Source: Occultella gossypii (GTDB lineage: Bacteria; Actinomycetota; Actinomycetes; Actinomycetales; Beutenbergiaceae). Taken from it: a stretch of 64,000 nucleotides of DNA. The DNA lies in NCBI RefSeq assembly GCF_019947135.1, contig NZ_JAGSHT010000021.1:62001-126000 (forward strand), given 5' to 3'. Positions 4,037 to 10,158 of this stretch are shown here, piece by piece. The notes beneath the pieces are model-generated. The model was not told the DNA's origin. It made no database searches and was given only the letters and a program-made list of their open reading frames with translations. Every line of letters starts with the position of its first letter. Within the stretch, counting starts at the first letter, position 1. A program made the position numbers and the translations under genes.

Positions 4037-5257
4037 TCAGCCGAGAATGATCCAGAGCAGCGCCGCGAGGATGAGGACCGCGCTGCCGGCGAGGATGCCG
4101 GGCAGCATCGACATGTCGGACGTCGTCGTCGCCGGTGGTTCGAAGGATCGGGCGACGGCGGGGGTCGCCACGCGGGGCTCGTCGCTCTCGCCGGGGCTTG
4201 CGTCGGGCGAACTGTCCGCGGCCGCGCGGTCGTGGTCCGGGCCCGTCTCGTCGTCGGCCGGGTGGAGGTCGCCGAGGTCGTCGCCGGCGGCCGTCGGGCT
4301 GTCGAGCAGGGTGACGCCGTCGTCGGAGTCGACGTCGACCCCGACGGGCCCGGTCGACCCGGCGGTCGCCGGTCGCGGCGTGCGCACGTGGGCACCGGCC
4401 GCGGGGCTCGTGGGATCGATGATCATGGTGGGCAGCGACTCGCTCAGGGCCGCGCCGGCGTCCGGGGAGAGCGTGATGCCGTCCGTGACCGCACCGGCGA
4501 ACACCGGTGCCGCGTCGAGCGGGTCGGTGTCGACGTCGGGCTCGGTGACCACGTCGGCCACCACCACGGTGACGTTGTCCCGGGTCCCCAGCACCAGCGC
4601 GGCGTTGATCAGGCCGCGAGCGGCCTCGGCCGGGTCGGGGCGGGTGAGCAGTTCACCGATGTGCTCCGCGGACAGGTAGTCGGAGAGGCCGTCGCTGCAC
4701 AGGAGCAGGCGGTCCCCTGGGCTCACCGTCAGGGCGATGATGTCCAGGTCGGCGCCGCCGGGCTGGTCGTCGAGGGAGCGCAGCAGCATCGACCGGTACG
4801 GGTGGGTGCGGGCCCGCTCCGGGGTGAGCTGGCCCTGGTCGATGAGCCGCTGCACGTGCGTGTGGTCGGTGGTGACCTGGTACAGCGAGCCTTCGTGCAG
4901 GCAGTAGACCCGGGAGTCCCCGATGTGGCCGATCGTCAGCTGCTCGCCGTCGCTGGCCACCGCGATCAGGGTGGTCCCCATCGACTCGAGCATGGCGTCC
5001 GCCTCGGACATGCCCTGGAGTGCGTGCCGGGAGGCCCGCCCCGCGTTCAGGAACTGGGTGGGGATGTCCGTGCCGGGGGAGTGCTCCACCTCGGCGAAGA
5101 CCCGCACCGCCACGCTCGAAGCGACCTCGCCGGCCGCGTGCCCGCCCATGCCGTCGGCGAGCACCAGCAGCCGTGGGCTGCCGAGAGCGGAGTCCTCGTT
5201 GTTCGTCCGGACGGTCCCGAGGTCGGTCTGCACGGCGTAGCGGAAACTCACCGCCAT
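4037..5257 (-). CDS. PP2C-family serine/threonine protein phosphatase, membrane-anchored
   Basis: 406-aa metal-dependent phosphatase. The PP2C domain (about 1-240) shows RTNNEDS, the metal-binding LVLADGMGGHAAGE, GDSRVY and LLCSDGLSDYL. A long acidic/proline-rich linker follows, and a single C-terminal membrane helix (LPGILAGSAVLILAALLWII) that anchors the catalytic domain facing the cytoplasm. Start: an ATG at 5257 with GGCGG eight bases upstream is preferred over an in-frame GTG three codons earlier. In actinobacteria such phosphatases oppose PknB-type kinases; no active kinase gene is adjacent, but the next gene upstream carries a kinase-like fold. Confidence 0.9.
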   Translation of the reverse strand: MAVSFRYAVQTDLGTVRTNNEDSALGSPRLLVLADGMGGHAAGEVASSVAVRVFAEVEHSPGTDIPTQFLNAGRASRHALQGMSEADAMLESMGTTLIAVASDGEQLTIGHIGDSRVYCLHEGSLYQVTTDHTHVQRLIDQGQLTPERARTHPYRSMLLRSLDDQPGGADLDIIALTVSPGDRLLLCSDGLSDYLSAEHIGELLTRPDPAEAARGLINAALVLGTRDNVTVVVADVVTEPDVDTDPLDAAPVFAGAVTDGITLSPDAGAALSESLPTMIIDPTSPAAGAHVRTPRPATAGSTGPVGVDVDSDDGVTLLDSPTAAGDDLGDLHPADDETGPDHDRAAADSSPDASPGESDEPRVATPAVARSFEPPATTTSDMSMLPGILAGSAVLILAALLWIILG

Positions 5258-5445
5258 CGTGTGCACCGCCTCTGACTGTCAGCCGCCTTCGGGGGCGGGG
5301 GCTTGGGAGCGAGTCTCACCCTACAACGCGGGAGGGCGCCGAATCTGCATCGCAATGGACCGAGGTGCCCATCTCCAGGAGGCGGACCTCCGGCGCGGCC
5401 GCCGCGTTCGAGTGTGGCCGGTCGTGGCCCGGTGACATTGCCGGG

Positions 5446-8238
5446 TCAGAGCGCGTTCTGCTTCTGCAGGTAGCGCAGCGCCGCCCAGCCGAGGGGTACC
5501 CGGATCCAGAACGTCAGCACCCGGAACAGCACCGCCGTCGATGCCGCGGTCGCGGTAGCGATCCCGGCGGTCCGCAGACCTGTGGAGAGCGCGAACTCCA
5601 CGGTTCCGATGCCACCCGGGGTGGGCACGGCCGAGCCGACGGCGGTACCGGTGAGGTAGACGATCGCGAGCGTCGTGGCCGGCAGGGTCTGGCCGAACGC
5701 GGCCAGCGCGGCAGCGAAGGACGCTAGGTAGCCGAGGGTCTGCACCAGGTTCCCGCCGAGGGCGAAGGCGAGCCGCTGCGGCTGGCCGACCACCCAGACG
5801 AGCCGCGGCCAGACCTGCTTCAGCGTGGGGGTGACCTTCGCGATCACCCAGCGGCGCAGCGCGGGCACCGCGAACGCGACCCCGACCACCACGGCCAGTG
5901 CCGCGGCGACGATCAGCGCGGCGCCCGAGGGAAAGCCCTGCAGTGCCCCGGAGCTGCCGGTGAGCAGGGCGATCGCGATCAGGAGCAGCACGGTGGTGAC
6001 GAACTGGGACACCTGGAGCAGGGCCACCGTGGCCAGGGCTATTGGTGTCTCGAGGCCCCGCTTCTGCATGTACCGGAGGTTGAGCGCCGCCGGGCCGACG
6101 CCGGCCGGGGCCACCAGGGTCACGACGGACGCGGCGACCTGGACCAGCGTGGTACGCCACAGCCCGAGCTTCTCGGGAGAGAACCCGACCAGCCCCATCG
6201 CGGAGCCGACGTAGGTGACCAGGCCCAGCACGAAGGCCACGACCATCCAGAACGGGTTCGCCTCGCTGATGACCTGAGCGATCTCCTGGAAGTTCAGGGT
6301 CGTCAGGAGCGCCCAGCCGGCCACCACCGCGATCGTCAGCGTGATCACCGTGCGGGCGCTGAACCGACTGAGCCGGATCGGCTCGACGATCCCGGCCGTC
6401 GGGATGAAGTCGACGAGGTGCGCGCGCAGAGCCGCCATCCCGGCCTTGTCCGCGCGGGCCTCGGCGCGGGTCTGCATCGGCAGCGCGATCGGCTGCAGAA
6501 GGGGTGCGATCTCGGCGAGCTGCTCGATGGACAGCACCCGGGCGGCGGCGGCGATGGCACGCTCGGGTCCGACCCGCAGCGCGAGCAGCGTCAGCAGCTG
6601 GGTGCGGTCGACCCGCCTGGCCAGGGAGCCGGACGCGATCTCGCCCTCCTCCCAGCCGTTCAGCCAGACCTCGCCCGCATCGGGGCCGTCGGCGTCGGCG
6701 ATCATGAGGGTGTCGGCGGTGAGGTTGCGGTGCGCGAGGCCCGCCTCGTGCGCGATCTGGAGCTGCTTCCAGGCGTTGATCATCACCTCGTCGGTGATCG
6801 CGCTGTTCGGGAGGTCGGAGAGCTGGCGGGCATGGTCGATGTGCTCACCGAGCAGCAGCACGGAGTCCTCGGTCTCGGCGATGCCGCGCAGGCGGGGACT
6901 GTTCACGCCGGCGGCGGATGCGGCGTAGTACATGAGGGCGGCGCGCTCTGCGGCCTGCCGCAACGAGACCGCGGTCCGGCGGGCCAGCCCGCGCCGCATG
7001 ATCGTCGAGATCACGGCGCTGAGCATGCCGATGACCTGCCGGTCACCATCGAGCACCACGGCGTCCCAGCGCACACCGCCGGAGTCGATGACGGCGTACA
7101 CCCGGTTCGCACCCTCGCGCTCGTTCGCGATGGTCGCGGACTCGGGCAGCTGGGCGAGCAGGCTGGTCTCGGTGTCGCTCGGGCCGCTGACCGTGTCGGT
7201 CGGGACGCGGAGTGGGTCGCTCGGGCCGTCGAGTGTGTCGTTTGGGGTGCCGAGGGCGTCGCTTGGGGCGCCGACGGTGTCGCTCGGCGCGGCGAGGGCG
7301 TCGGTCGGGGTGCCGAGGGCGTCGCTCGGGCCGCCGAGCCCGTCGGACGTCGCGGTCACTCCCGTCCGCGGGGCGGTCGGCGGCACGGTCCCGGCCCGGG
7401 ACGGTGTCGCGAACGACGGCGCGGTGTACCCGATCGGTCCCGACGCCTCGACCACATCCTGGCGCAGGTCCTCGGCGAGGGTCGAGTCGCCGATCCGGAT
7501 CACCCGGACCGGGTCCACCCCGGCCCGCCGGATGCCCTCGACGAGCTCGAGTCCATGGGCCCGCTGGCTCAGGACCCCGGACAGGTACCGCATGCCGAGG
7601 CCCGTCGCGCGGCCGATCAGCACGGACACGATCGCCGCCACGAGGGTCGCGGTCCCGGTGATCACCGTGACGACCAGGACGAACCACAACAGGTTCCAGG
7701 AGATCCGCACGATGCGGCGCCGGTCACTGGTGCCGACCGCCGTCAGGAAGGCGCCCAGCGCGGCGACCGGCGCGGAGATCGTGATCACCCAGGCGCCGTC
7801 CTGGAACCGGAGCAGGGACCGGGCCAGGGCGTTCGTGGCGAACGAGTCCAGCAGCCAGATCGCGAGCAGGGCCACGACGTAGGCGACCGCTGCCGCGGCG
7901 ATGGCGTCCAGGACGGCCCGGACGTTGCGCCGGACCAGCTGCTCGATGACCACGATGATCGGCAGCACGAGGATGAGCAGACCCTCGATCACGTTCACCG
8001 GGACGAGCAGGATCGTGCGGACCACCTGCGCCAGTGCGGACTGGACGTCCTCGGTCACGCCGGTCGTGGTCGCATAGGCGTACACGGCCAGTGCCAGGAC
8101 CGCCGCGATACCGAGCAGCGACAAAAGCATCAGGACCAGGTCGACCGGGCGCCGGACCCGGGTCAGTGGGATGTCCAGGATCCGCACCTGGCGGACCGGG
8201 CCCCTGGGGGTCACCGGCCCTGCGGAATCGGTGGACAT
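5446..8238 (-). CDS. Flippase-like LPG synthase-type integral membrane protein with embedded degenerate kinase domain
   Basis: 930-aa protein. N-terminal block of about 4-5 membrane helices (33-60, 80-100, 112-132, 150-168, 185-210), then a soluble section with eight heptad repeats (302-356), a kinase-like region (about 375-600), and a C-terminal AglD/MprF-type helical domain (about 630-925) containing TYVGSAMGL, LVAPAGVGPAALNLRY and VPTPGGIGTVEF, the conserved motifs of the UPF0104/LPG_synthase_TM family. In the kinase-like part the HRDxxxxN loop reads HRNLTADT (502-509) and no DFG is visible (NGWEE instead), so both catalytic residues appear lost. Likely role: lipid or lipid-linked glycan translocation, regulated by the pseudokinase (inference). 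Confidence 0.85.
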   Translation of the reverse strand: MSTDSAGPVTPRGPVRQVRILDIPLTRVRRPVDLVLMLLSLLGIAAVLALAVYAYATTTGVTEDVQSALAQVVRTILLVPVNVIEGLLILVLPIIVVIEQLVRRNVRAVLDAIAAAAVAYVVALLAIWLLDSFATNALARSLLRFQDGAWVITISAPVAALGAFLTAVGTSDRRRIVRISWNLLWFVLVVTVITGTATLVAAIVSVLIGRATGLGMRYLSGVLSQRAHGLELVEGIRRAGVDPVRVIRIGDSTLAEDLRQDVVEASGPIGYTAPSFATPSRAGTVPPTAPRTGVTATSDGLGGPSDALGTPTDALAAPSDTVGAPSDALGTPNDTLDGPSDPLRVPTDTVSGPSDTETSLLAQLPESATIANEREGANRVYAVIDSGGVRWDAVVLDGDRQVIGMLSAVISTIMRRGLARRTAVSLRQAAERAALMYYAASAAGVNSPRLRGIAETEDSVLLLGEHIDHARQLSDLPNSAITDEVMINAWKQLQIAHEAGLAHRNLTADTLMIADADGPDAGEVWLNGWEEGEIASGSLARRVDRTQLLTLLALRVGPERAIAAAARVLSIEQLAEIAPLLQPIALPMQTRAEARADKAGMAALRAHLVDFIPTAGIVEPIRLSRFSARTVITLTIAVVAGWALLTTLNFQEIAQVISEANPFWMVVAFVLGLVTYVGSAMGLVGFSPEKLGLWRTTLVQVAASVVTLVAPAGVGPAALNLRYMQKRGLETPIALATVALLQVSQFVTTVLLLIAIALLTGSSGALQGFPSGAALIVAAALAVVVGVAFAVPALRRWVIAKVTPTLKQVWPRLVWVVGQPQRLAFALGGNLVQTLGYLASFAAALAAFGQTLPATTLAIVYLTGTAVGSAVPTPGGIGTVEFALSTGLRTAGIATATAASTAVLFRVLTFWIRVPLGWAALRYLQKQNAL
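7171..7335 (-). repeat. Degenerate 21-bp tandem repeats inside the flippase gene
   Basis: Eight in-frame heptads of the form xxP(S/T/N)D(A/T)(L/V), for example GGPSDAL, GTPTDAL, AAPSDTV, GAPSDAL, joining the membrane block to the kinase-like block. The copies differ at DNA level, so they are an old flexible linker and not a recent expansion. Confidence 0.8.
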
Positions 8239-8305: not shown

Positions 8306-9127
8306 TCAAGCCAGCCCGAGCGCCGTCAGCGCGGCGGCGGGAAGCAGGGCGTAGCCCACAAAACCCACGATATCGATCAGGGTGTGCGCGATGACCAACG
8401 GCGCCACCCGCCGTCGGCCCCATTTCGAACAGTAGAACAGACCGAAGATCACGCCCATGATGACGTTCCCGAAGAACGGGCCCCAGCCCTGGTACAGGTG
8501 GTAGGAACCGCGGATCAGCGCCGAGACCACGATGATCGACCACAGTCGCCAGCGCTTCTCGCGGAGCCGCTCGAACAGGTATCCGACCACGAGGACCTCC
8601 TCGAGGACACCATTCTTGAGGGCCGCGAGGATCAGGATCGGGACCGACCACCAGTACGGATCGAGCGCGGAGGCCTGCACCGACACCGTGATGCCGACCG
8701 CGCGTCCGGCCAGATACAGACCGAGCCCGGGGATGCCGATGATGGCGCCGAGGGCAAGACCCCAGCCGAAGTCGCGACCGGGGCGGCTCAGGTCGAGGCC
8801 GATCCGCCGGAACGGATTGCGCCCGGTGTCGCTGAGCAGGTACAGCGCGAGGGCAACCGGTACCAGCGCGAACGTCAACGAGAGCACCTGGTAGAGCAGG
8901 TCCCAGTACGGCCTCTCGGACAGTGGTGGGTTGAGCGTCGCGGTCTGGTCCCCGAGTGGGCCGCGGGTGAGGCGGTCGAGGATGTTCACGACGGCGTACA
9001 CACCGGACCGGCCGAGCGACAGGCCCATCACGATCCAGATCTCGACCGTCAGGCGCCGGGACCGGGCCTTTGCCGACGGCGGCGGTGCGGTCAGGGAGGG
9101 TGTCGACGGTTCGCCCTGGGTCGCCAT
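8306..9127 (-). CDS. CPBP (Abi/CAAX) family intramembrane glutamic endopeptidase
   Basis: 273-aa polytopic protein with about seven membrane helices. The CPBP signature is present as NGVLEEVLVVGYL (paired glutamates), SYHLYQGWG (second-motif histidine) and IAHTLIDIVGF (third motif). The usual EExxxR arginine is valine here (EEVLVV), a variant I have seen described for actinobacterial members, so activity is uncertain. The start MATQGEPS at 9127 is chosen over an upstream in-frame ATG because the latter lacks a ribosome site. The gene is read away from the HTH gene at 9238. Confidence 0.82.
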   Translation of the reverse strand: MATQGEPSTPSLTAPPPSAKARSRRLTVEIWIVMGLSLGRSGVYAVVNILDRLTRGPLGDQTATLNPPLSERPYWDLLYQVLSLTFALVPVALALYLLSDTGRNPFRRIGLDLSRPGRDFGWGLALGAIIGIPGLGLYLAGRAVGITVSVQASALDPYWWSVPILILAALKNGVLEEVLVVGYLFERLREKRWRLWSIIVVSALIRGSYHLYQGWGPFFGNVIMGVIFGLFYCSKWGRRRVAPLVIAHTLIDIVGFVGYALLPAAALTALGLA

Positions 9128-9165
9128 ACGCCGGTTATAGCGCATCCACCTGCGCGTCAGGAGGT

Positions 9166-9493: not shown

Positions 9494-9898
9494 TCAGACG
9501 AAAATAACTTCTAGCCCGCGGGCGTCTCGGAGCGGCGCGAAGTCGTCGTCCTGTGTGACGACCGGCAGGCCGTTGGCGACCGCCGTCGCCGCGATCCACA
9601 GGTCGTTGACGTTGATACGTCGGCCGGCCTGGGCCAGGTACACCCGAAGGCGCGCCCATTCGGCCGCGACCAGGCCGTCGATCGGGAGCACCTCGATGTC
9701 GGCCACCGCCTCCAGGGTGGCCAGCCGACGGGCGCGAATGTCGACATCGGCGGCGACGAGCACGCCTGCCTGCAGCTCCGCGATGGTCACTGGGCAGATG
9801 ACGCCCTCATCCGGCAGCCTCCGACTCTCCAGTGGCCGGCCCGACTCGAGGGCGATGAACACGCTCGTGTCCAGAAGGCCTCTCGACGCGGAGGTCAT
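9494..9898 (-). CDS. vapC: VapC-type PIN-domain ribonuclease toxin
   Basis: 134-aa PIN protein. Acidic metal-binding residues appear in order as GLLDTSVFIALE, TIAELQAG, VNDLWIAATA and VTQDDDF, the complete D-E-D-D set expected for an active RNase. The ATG overlaps the stop of the antitoxin gene (ATGA), as in most VapBC operons. Confidence 0.92.
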   Translation of the reverse strand: MTSASRGLLDTSVFIALESGRPLESRRLPDEGVICPVTIAELQAGVLVAADVDIRARRLATLEAVADIEVLPIDGLVAAEWARLRVYLAQAGRRINVNDLWIAATAVANGLPVVTQDDDFAPLRDARGLEVIFV

Positions 9899-10158
9899 CA
9901 CCGAATCGGGTCGAGGTCGTCAGTCGTGTCCCCGGCCAGCGCCGCCAGATCTTCACGGATTCCGGGGTCGGCCTGTGCGCGGCTGAGCCGCCGGACGAGT
10001 TCCGCGCGCGCGATCGGCCTGCGACGCGCTCCGCGTACCGGTGTCAACTCCGCTACGGGACGGCCGCGGGAGGTGATCGTCACCTGTTCGCCCGCTTCCA
10101 CCCGTCGAAGCACGTCGGCGGTGTGGTTGCGCAGTTCTCGCGCCGCGATCTCCGACAT
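9898..10158 (-). CDS. vapB: Phd/YefM-type antitoxin (VapB partner)
   Basis: 86-aa antitoxin with the AbrB-independent Phd fold: SEIAARELRNHTADVLRRVEAGEQVTITSRGRPVAEL, then a basic linker and an acidic tail (DLAALAGDTTDDLDPIR) that should wrap the toxin. First gene of the pair. A direct repeat, CGTAGC spaced by 11 bp (about 10168-10184), lies just upstream and is a candidate autoregulatory site. Confidence 0.9.
   Translation of the reverse strand: MSEIAARELRNHTADVLRRVEAGEQVTITSRGRPVAELTPVRGARRRPIARAELVRRLSRAQADPGIREDLAALAGDTTDDLDPIR

Follow-up and report, generated by a model that had tools for sequence, protein, structure and literature searches.

The DNA analysed here (hereafter the window) is a stretch of 64,000 nucleotides from the 5.84 Mb genome of Occultella gossypii, and it carries on its minus strand a gene in which a kinase-fold domain is fused between two membrane blocks of an MprF/AglD-type protein. 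Judging from alignment and from a predicted structure, this domain is a pseudokinase across the whole clade of its orthologues, and the best explanation, in which fair confidence can be placed, is that the conserved pseudokinase serves, independently of any nucleotide, as an allosteric or scaffolding module of an MprF-type flippase or scramblase. The computed basis of this explanation consists of the loss of catalytic residues, the predicted fold, the selection acting on the gene and the order of the neighbouring genes (synteny). The gene and the main parts of its product are:

5446..8238, minus strand: flippase-pseudokinase fusion gene, an open reading frame (ORF) of 930 amino acids with an ATG start
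7579..8148, minus strand: N-terminal membrane block, residues 31-220, with about six membrane helices (taking 31-102 as two) in the full-length AlphaFold2 (AF2) model
6403..7146, minus strand: predicted pseudokinase domain, residues 365-612, from the AF2 model and structural matches to PRPK and WaaP
5455..6363, minus strand: C-terminal MprF/AglD-type membrane block, residues 626-928, from PF03706 and structural comparison

A sequence-only reading of this DNA had already placed a kinase-like segment (about residues 375-600) between membrane blocks of an MprF/AglD-type protein. That observation is confirmed, since the modelled domain lies between helical blocks at 31-220 and 628-926, and the interpretation built on it turns out to be partly supported and mostly right. 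Beyond it, the kinase is more completely dead than had been noted, the link to a phosphatase is limited to one lineage, and a better-conserved neighbour, a CPBP protease gene, had been missed.

The fusion family is found in common actinobacteria such as Cellulomonas, Oerskovia, Isoptericola, Ruania and Occultella. Over the kinase segment, the closest named relatives belong to Occultella (97 and 89% identity) and Ruania (74 and 72%), and the N-terminus MSTDSAGPVTPRGP is common to the window protein and its closest orthologue (L002). Named loci are the best 80 of 126 relatives; the window protein was aligned with 71 of these 80 in alignment A3 and with 46 in alignment A4. Neither the fusion architecture nor a combination of PF03706 with a kinase or pseudokinase was found described in the open-licence literature.

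Loss of the catalytic residues

Residues were read from an alignment of 128 distinct kinase segments, consisting of 98 distinct orthologous domains and 30 distant segments, from which three loci with a kinase segment shorter than 180 amino acids (L042-L044), one in the wrong reading frame (L062) and copies with an identical core had been excluded. Two rows scored with the 30 distant segments (L040 and L041) nevertheless group with the orthologues in the tree described below. Three sites of the window protein are central to the comparison:

7057..7059, minus strand: Val394 at the beta3-Lys position, from the alignment (Lys in 0/98 orthologues)
6709..6732, minus strand: degenerate catalytic loop HRNLTADT, residues 503-510, from sequence and alignment
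6640..6657, minus strand: GWEEGE, residues 528-533, replacing the DFG region, from the alignment

Besides the beta3 Lys, the alphaC Glu, the catalytic Asn and the DFG Asp are each absent from all 98 orthologous domains, and the HRD Asp is retained in four of them; the window protein itself lacks the Lys, the HRD Asp and the DFG Asp. The beta3-Lys position is occupied by V (68 domains), L (10), I (8) and G (8), with F, T, N and M found once each, so that 96 of the 98 have a hydrophobic residue or Gly there and none has Arg. The HRD Asp is replaced by Asn in 27 orthologues, the window protein among them, and no orthologue has an acidic residue at the DFG-Asp position. The sequence-only reading had described the catalytic loop in the same way (Asp to Asn, Asn to Thr) and had seen no DFG, and both descriptions hold, with G-W-E at residues 528-530 in place of the latter.

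Six positions are invariant in 98/98 orthologues, namely H503 (the HRD His), W529 (at the DFG Phe position), G532, D544 (the alphaF Asp), G557 and Q582. The regulatory spine of kinases is built with the HRD His, the DFG Phe and the alphaF Asp, and we infer that W529 fills this spine at the DFG-Phe position. With the beta3 Lys, the alphaC Glu and the metal-binding Asp all gone, the domain more probably works by scaffolding or allostery than by binding ATP. Therefore, where the sequence-only reading had proposed a ligand-binding or scaffolding pseudokinase, the pseudokinase stands and scaffolding is the favoured half of the proposal, while binding of ATP is not.

The same conserved positions could also be read as the mark of a re-purposed pocket (H503, W529, G532 and Q582, each in 98/98), and the domain might then be (i) a non-canonical enzyme that binds a nucleotide in another way and transfers a group other than phosphate, as does SidJ, a kinase fold that reportedly performs glutamylation, or (ii) a sensor of a small ligand, for instance a lipid headgroup. 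Alternative modes of ATP binding have been proposed for some bacterial pseudokinases (PMC12599244). Such an enzyme is nevertheless unlikely, given the missing acidic residue at the DFG-Asp position and the hydrophobic residue or Gly at the beta3 position, where the orthologues have neither Lys nor Arg, unlike ActPs2 and DYD with their Arg (PMC12599244).

The predicted kinase fold

The sequence-only reading had named structure prediction as the way to check the kinase-like segment, and a kinase fold is indeed what is predicted. AF2 modelling of the segment, from an alignment of 72 sequences, gave a mean predicted local distance difference test score (pLDDT) of 79.2 and a predicted template modelling score (pTM) of 0.77, with a pLDDT of at least 70 at 207 of 270 residues. 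The model has N-lobe strands, an alphaC helix and a helical C-lobe, and its beta3-to-alphaC stretch is poorly predicted. When VIA-align was run on the top 1000 Foldseek matches, human PRPK (Bud32) came first (Z 17.5, root-mean-square deviation 3.0 over 194 residues) and WaaP second (Z 15.0), with canonical kinases at 14.5 and lower. By this ranking of the model, the nearest folds would be the atypical Bud32/WaaP kinases instead of PknB. Bud32/PRPK and WaaP (Kdo) are enzymes, whereas the orthologues of the window protein have lost Lys, Glu, Asn and the DFG Asp throughout and the HRD Asp in 94/98.

Sequence profiles point the same way. More specifically, a profile of 33 family members (some of them catalytically intact) retrieves protein kinases of known structure with a best E-value of 3.1e-8, and of the same 33, the Kdo/WaaP profile matches 11 and the Pkinase profile matches 9 (E up to 0.1). 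The Kdo/WaaP profile also matches 8 of 47 full-length orthologues at E 0.01 or better. A profile built from orthologues only (22 sequences) gives a weak signal (best E 0.017), and all 60 matches listed for it are protein kinases, as are the 50 best Foldseek matches of the model (best E 5e-8). The kinase match of the segment thus exceeds chance. For the window protein taken singly, there is no Pfam kinase match with the whole protein or with the kinase segment alone, no match of the whole protein to PDB sequences at E up to 1 (phmmer), and 14.4 bits against the equivalog cut-off of 125 for arch_bud32. One match to Pfam CRPA (E 4e-4) lies below the cut-off, is seen in one of 47 orthologues and was taken as chance.

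The kinase fold may begin earlier in the chain than the segment suggests:

7444..7554, minus strand: helix and two strands, residues 229-265, a possible N-lobe addition (full-length model only)

Most kinase matches in the structural comparison of the full model begin at residues 218-241, ahead of a disordered linker, and in this model the N-lobe may start directly after the last helix of the first membrane block.

Selection on the domain and its linker

Between the two membrane blocks, the linker that precedes the kinase segment behaves differently from everything around it:

7183..7425, minus strand: disordered linker, residues 272-352, pLDDT <50 in the full-length model
7174..7345, minus strand: 21-bp tandem repeat within the linker, about 8 copies with 76% matches, from a repeat scan

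Its repeat unit is 7 amino acids of the type G-x-P-S/T-D-x-x, rich in Ser, Thr, Pro and Asp, and the stretch aligned to residues 264-378 is between 14 and 150 residues long across 47 orthologues, with 14-30 residues in 17 of them. Ratios of nonsynonymous to synonymous change (dN/dS) were obtained by a simple Nei-Gojobori count, in which the linker was taken as residues 272-355 (57-84 codons). Against L002, L003 and L004, the first two being the closest species in the comparison, the kinase domain has values of 0.034, 0.062 and 0.148, respectively; the N-terminal block has 0.026, 0.051 and 0.129, the C-terminal block 0.027, 0.031 and 0.074, and the linker 1.13, 1.00 and 0.91. Since the kinase domain resembles the membrane blocks and not the linker, it is not a dying domain.

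These values bear on two further explanations. According to the first, the domain is a relic that serves as a structural spacer, joining two membrane blocks with no regulatory role, and its placement between the blocks fits this, as does the fact that the best-kept positions are those of the kinase-fold core. Such a spacer is quite improbable here, as it would need neither an invariant and specific replacement motif nor a dN/dS about as low as that of the membrane blocks. According to the second, the gene is a decayed allele or an annotation error, for which the one precedent is a broken copy in another genome (L027, with one TGA). The sequence-only reading had held that orthologues with an intact HRD and DFG would mark the window gene as a decayed allele, and none exists among the 98. 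With 29 of 30 listed loci free of internal stops, no catalytically complete orthologue and strong purifying selection, decay is ruled out with near certainty.

The membrane blocks and probable lipid translocation

Pfam scans of the window protein and of 47 orthologues assign the N-terminal membrane block to no family. The C-terminal block is matched by LPG_synthase_TM (PF03706) on residues 632-917 (E 4.5e-30; 105.6 bits against a curated cut-off of 33.4), and the same family matches all 47 full-length orthologues at E 0.01 or better. In the full-length AF2 model this helical block spans residues 628-926, and the modelled block 626-928 aligns with residues 27-341, the first half of the flippase domain of MprF, whose five solved entries give VIA Z-scores of 17.9-19.5 (9j8s, Z 19.5 over 271 residues). 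The NCBIfam model for MprF (NF033480) scores 48.4 bits against an equivalog cut-off of 600 and covers positions 10-291 of 841 only. The likeness to MprF thus concerns the fold of that first half; the window protein differs from MprF in having no match to the rest of the profile and no aminoacyl-phosphatidylglycerol synthase domain, and in carrying an extra N-terminal membrane block and a kinase-fold domain. No such lysylphosphatidylglycerol (LysPG) synthase domain was found among the Pfam matches of the window protein and 47 orthologues, and a role in surface charge, which the sequence-only reading had suggested testing for, is therefore not implied.

E881 and R906, spaced 25 residues apart, are invariant in 47/47 sequences, and the gate of RtMprF is formed by a salt bridge between Glu280 and Arg304, 24 residues apart (PMC8131360). 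A correspondence of the two pairs is suggestive, on the basis of spacing and motif and not of a residue alignment. PaMprF reportedly scrambles many lipids without an energy source (PMC11980842), and by its predicted fold the window protein, too, is likely to translocate lipid. Loops that are rich in Arg by eye precede helix 1, connect helices 2/3 and 4/5, and follow helix 6, a placement that fits a kinase domain on the cytoplasmic side, where we infer it to be.

Relatives and the history of the family

A match was found in 39 of 59 relatives searched. Among 296 genomes of the phylum, 65 have some match (three candidates per genome were scored) and 34, the window's own genome included, have a match that runs from the kinase segment through the end of the flippase block; a plasmid collection of 72,556 records yields six, including Actinomyces oris, Streptomyces and Mycolicibacterium. 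All four of Lys, HRD Asp, Asn and DFG Asp are kept in 5 of the 30 distant segments (L045, L046, L047, L049 and L059). A quick, unrooted tree of 75 of the 128 rows was labelled by counting as 'dead' any row with fewer than two of the four catalytic residues. On this count, the orthologue side is dead in 47/47 rows, while the other side holds 5 intact, 7 partial and 16 dead rows, and well-supported branches force at least five changes of the label. With five distant relatives that keep the catalytic set, an active ancestor is likely, and repeated loss from it would be the natural reading of the unrooted tree.

Degenerate fusions are found elsewhere, too. The window's own genome has a second kinase-flippase fusion (L031/L160; G000:C14:146533-147858), with 32% identity over residues 481-927, which has Arg at beta3, H-G-S for HRD and D-L-S at the DFG site. 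L051-L053, of the large-genome family f21, have Thr at beta3 and an H-R-R catalytic loop, with the DFG Asp kept in two of the three, and are, as their residues have it, a separate route to a pseudokinase.

Comparison with known systems

The best functional analogue of the window protein is mycobacterial MviN/MurJ (Rv3910, with the pseudokinase ActPs3), a proposed lipid II flippase with a pseudokinase that PknB phosphorylates, that binds FhaA but not ATP, and that is not needed for growth (PMC12599244, PMC6180346). The likeness consists of a membrane protein proposed to be a lipid flippase and an intracellular pseudokinase in which all catalytic motifs are degraded (PMC12599244, PMC6180346). 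The two differ in (i) the membrane family, which is MurJ in MviN and LPG_synthase_TM in the window protein, and (ii) the position of the pseudokinase, which follows the membrane part in MviN and lies between two membrane blocks in the window protein. Given this different family and domain order, the window protein is not a member of MviN/MurJ, and it has no Pfam MVIN match at E up to 1. It may be described as another pseudokinase-bearing lipid flippase, a known kind of protein, with a different architecture.

ActPs2 shares with the window protein an actinobacterial origin, a link to the membrane and the change of the HRD Asp to Asn (PMC12599244). Its beta3 Lys is Arg in almost all members, and about 90% carry an activation-loop insertion of about 250 amino acids (PMC12599244), whereas beta3 Arg is found in 0/98 orthologues and the window protein has no such insertion, with 16 residues from the DFG position (528) to the alphaF Asp (544). 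The words flippase, MprF and lysylphosphatidylglycerol were not found in the main text of a 2025 review of bacterial pseudokinase families.

A conserved protease neighbour

The gene immediately upstream of the fusion gene encodes an intramembrane protease:

8306..9145, minus strand: CPBP/Rce1-like intramembrane protease gene, 67 bp upstream (PF02517, E 2.9e-16)

It is found upstream in 56 of the 80 named loci, always on the same strand. Nine loci have less than 1.5 kb of upstream sequence (three of these carry the gene), which leaves 53 of 71 among loci with at least 1.5 kb. In 30 of the 56 the CPBP gene ends beside the flippase ORF or overlaps it, and the loci that carry it span 18 named genera, though they are not independent. 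E182, E183, H216, H254 and D258, which we take to be the putative catalytic residues (including the EExxxR motif), are kept in 57/57 sequences, and all 57 have Val where the Arg of EExxxR is expected.

The pairing seems to belong to the orthologue clade. In twenty further loci of 9-19 kb, tblastn with the window CPBP protein found the gene once, at L157, which branches deep within the orthologue side, and in 0/16 loci of the tree's other side; a very diverged copy could escape such a search. These results give no support for a CPBP neighbour throughout the fusion family. Within the clade, the protease is a likely partner, and the partnership could be a physical one.

Proposed mechanism and what weighs against it

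The protein would be a membrane lipid translocase with an MprF-type flippase/scramblase fold and a cytoplasmic kinase-fold domain. The ancestor of this domain was presumably a Bud32/WaaP-like kinase, whose catalytic set is still whole in a few distant actinobacterial relatives. The clade would have lost the residues that bind ATP and Mg and kept the structural core (the HRD His, the alphaF Asp and a Trp at the DFG-Phe position of the spine). Wired between two membrane blocks, the pseudokinase would then most likely set the activity or the partners of the translocase without a nucleotide, with the CPBP protease encoded just upstream as a likely partner across the clade.

Several points count against this mechanism. 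Ligand binding can persist in pseudokinases whose motifs are degraded (PMC12599244), and Foldseek on its own puts canonical kinases on top, with TM-scores of 0.4-0.5. Against the distant L005, L008 and L011, the kinase domain reaches a dN/dS of 0.24-0.32, although the membrane blocks have 0.24-0.42 and the linker 0.67-0.91 in the same comparisons, which leaves the kinase domain near or below the blocks and below the linker. A sequence profile of the C-terminal block retrieves no MprF from the PDB set, so that the link to MprF draws on the fold, PF03706 and the sub-cut-off NCBIfam match, and transport by PaMprF withstands mutation of the salt bridge equivalent to that of RtMprF (PMC11980842). 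The CPBP gene lies 0.6-5.7 kb away in 26 of 56 loci and was not found in 18 of the 71 loci with at least 1.5 kb upstream. Finally, experimental work on any member of the family was not found in the open-licence literature.

How bacteria control the scrambling and flipping of their lipids is poorly understood, and in the literature examined here no bacterial flippase other than MviN was met whose pseudokinase has been studied. As a tentative proposal, a separate class of pseudokinase-controlled lipid translocases might exist across Actinomycetota besides MviN, in which the kinase of an ancestral kinase-flippase fusion died in whole lineages and became an allosteric switch of scrambling, permanently assembled through its Trp spine and tied in this clade to a dedicated CPBP protease. 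Where the kinase of a relative is active, it could act in the membrane on the very lipid or carrier that the protein flips, by phosphorylating it. Since some relatives keep the complete catalytic set, a dead form of the fusion and perhaps a live one can be compared within one family, and the conserved CPBP neighbour is a concrete first candidate for a partner.

The phosphatase and other neighbours

Downstream of the fusion gene lies a phosphatase gene:

4037..5266, minus strand: PP2C phosphatase gene with a C-terminal hydrophobic tail (PF13672, E 1.2e-15; tail from the translation)

The sequence-only reading had reported this gene on the same strand with a 188-bp gap, which is what is seen when the ATG at 5257 is taken as the start (179 bp from an upstream GTG), and had taken it as a hint of phospho-regulation. 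The adjacency is confined to the window's bacterial family, where PP2C adjoins the fusion gene in 22/22 loci, as against 0/8 orthologues outside it. With PP2C near the fusion gene in 8 of the 80 named loci, it is ruled out as a general partner beyond that family.

It is from these data that a flippase phospho-regulated in the style of MviN can be judged, in which a Ser/Thr kinase would act on the linker or pseudokinase, an FHA protein would bind and the neighbouring PP2C would reverse the modification. The constant PP2C neighbour in the family, the 15 Pkinase matches over the cut-off in the genome, the Ser/Thr-rich repeat linker and the precedent of MviN (PMC12599244, PMC6180346) all speak for it. 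It is doubtful all the same, because the eight outside orthologues still have the pseudokinase with no PP2C beside it, and the linker is near neutral, with the stretch at residues 264-378 reduced to 14-30 residues in 17/47 orthologues. We know of no phosphosite in the window protein. Alongside the nucleotide-independent module favoured above, Ser/Thr phosphorylation may instead be an extra level of control within the window's bacterial family, where the neighbouring PP2C would act on the variable, Ser/Thr-rich linker.

The genome has three PP2C_2 matches, the neighbouring PP2C included. Another PP2C, on contig C34, has two Pkinase matches about 3.7 and 5.3 kb away, an arrangement like that of a PstP-PknAB cluster. 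An ABC-transporter gene family is present in 43 of the 80 loci, mostly upstream and on the opposite strand, and the window also carries the following gene:

9494-9901, minus strand: PIN-domain protein gene, possibly a VapC-type toxin (PF01850, E 2.5e-19)

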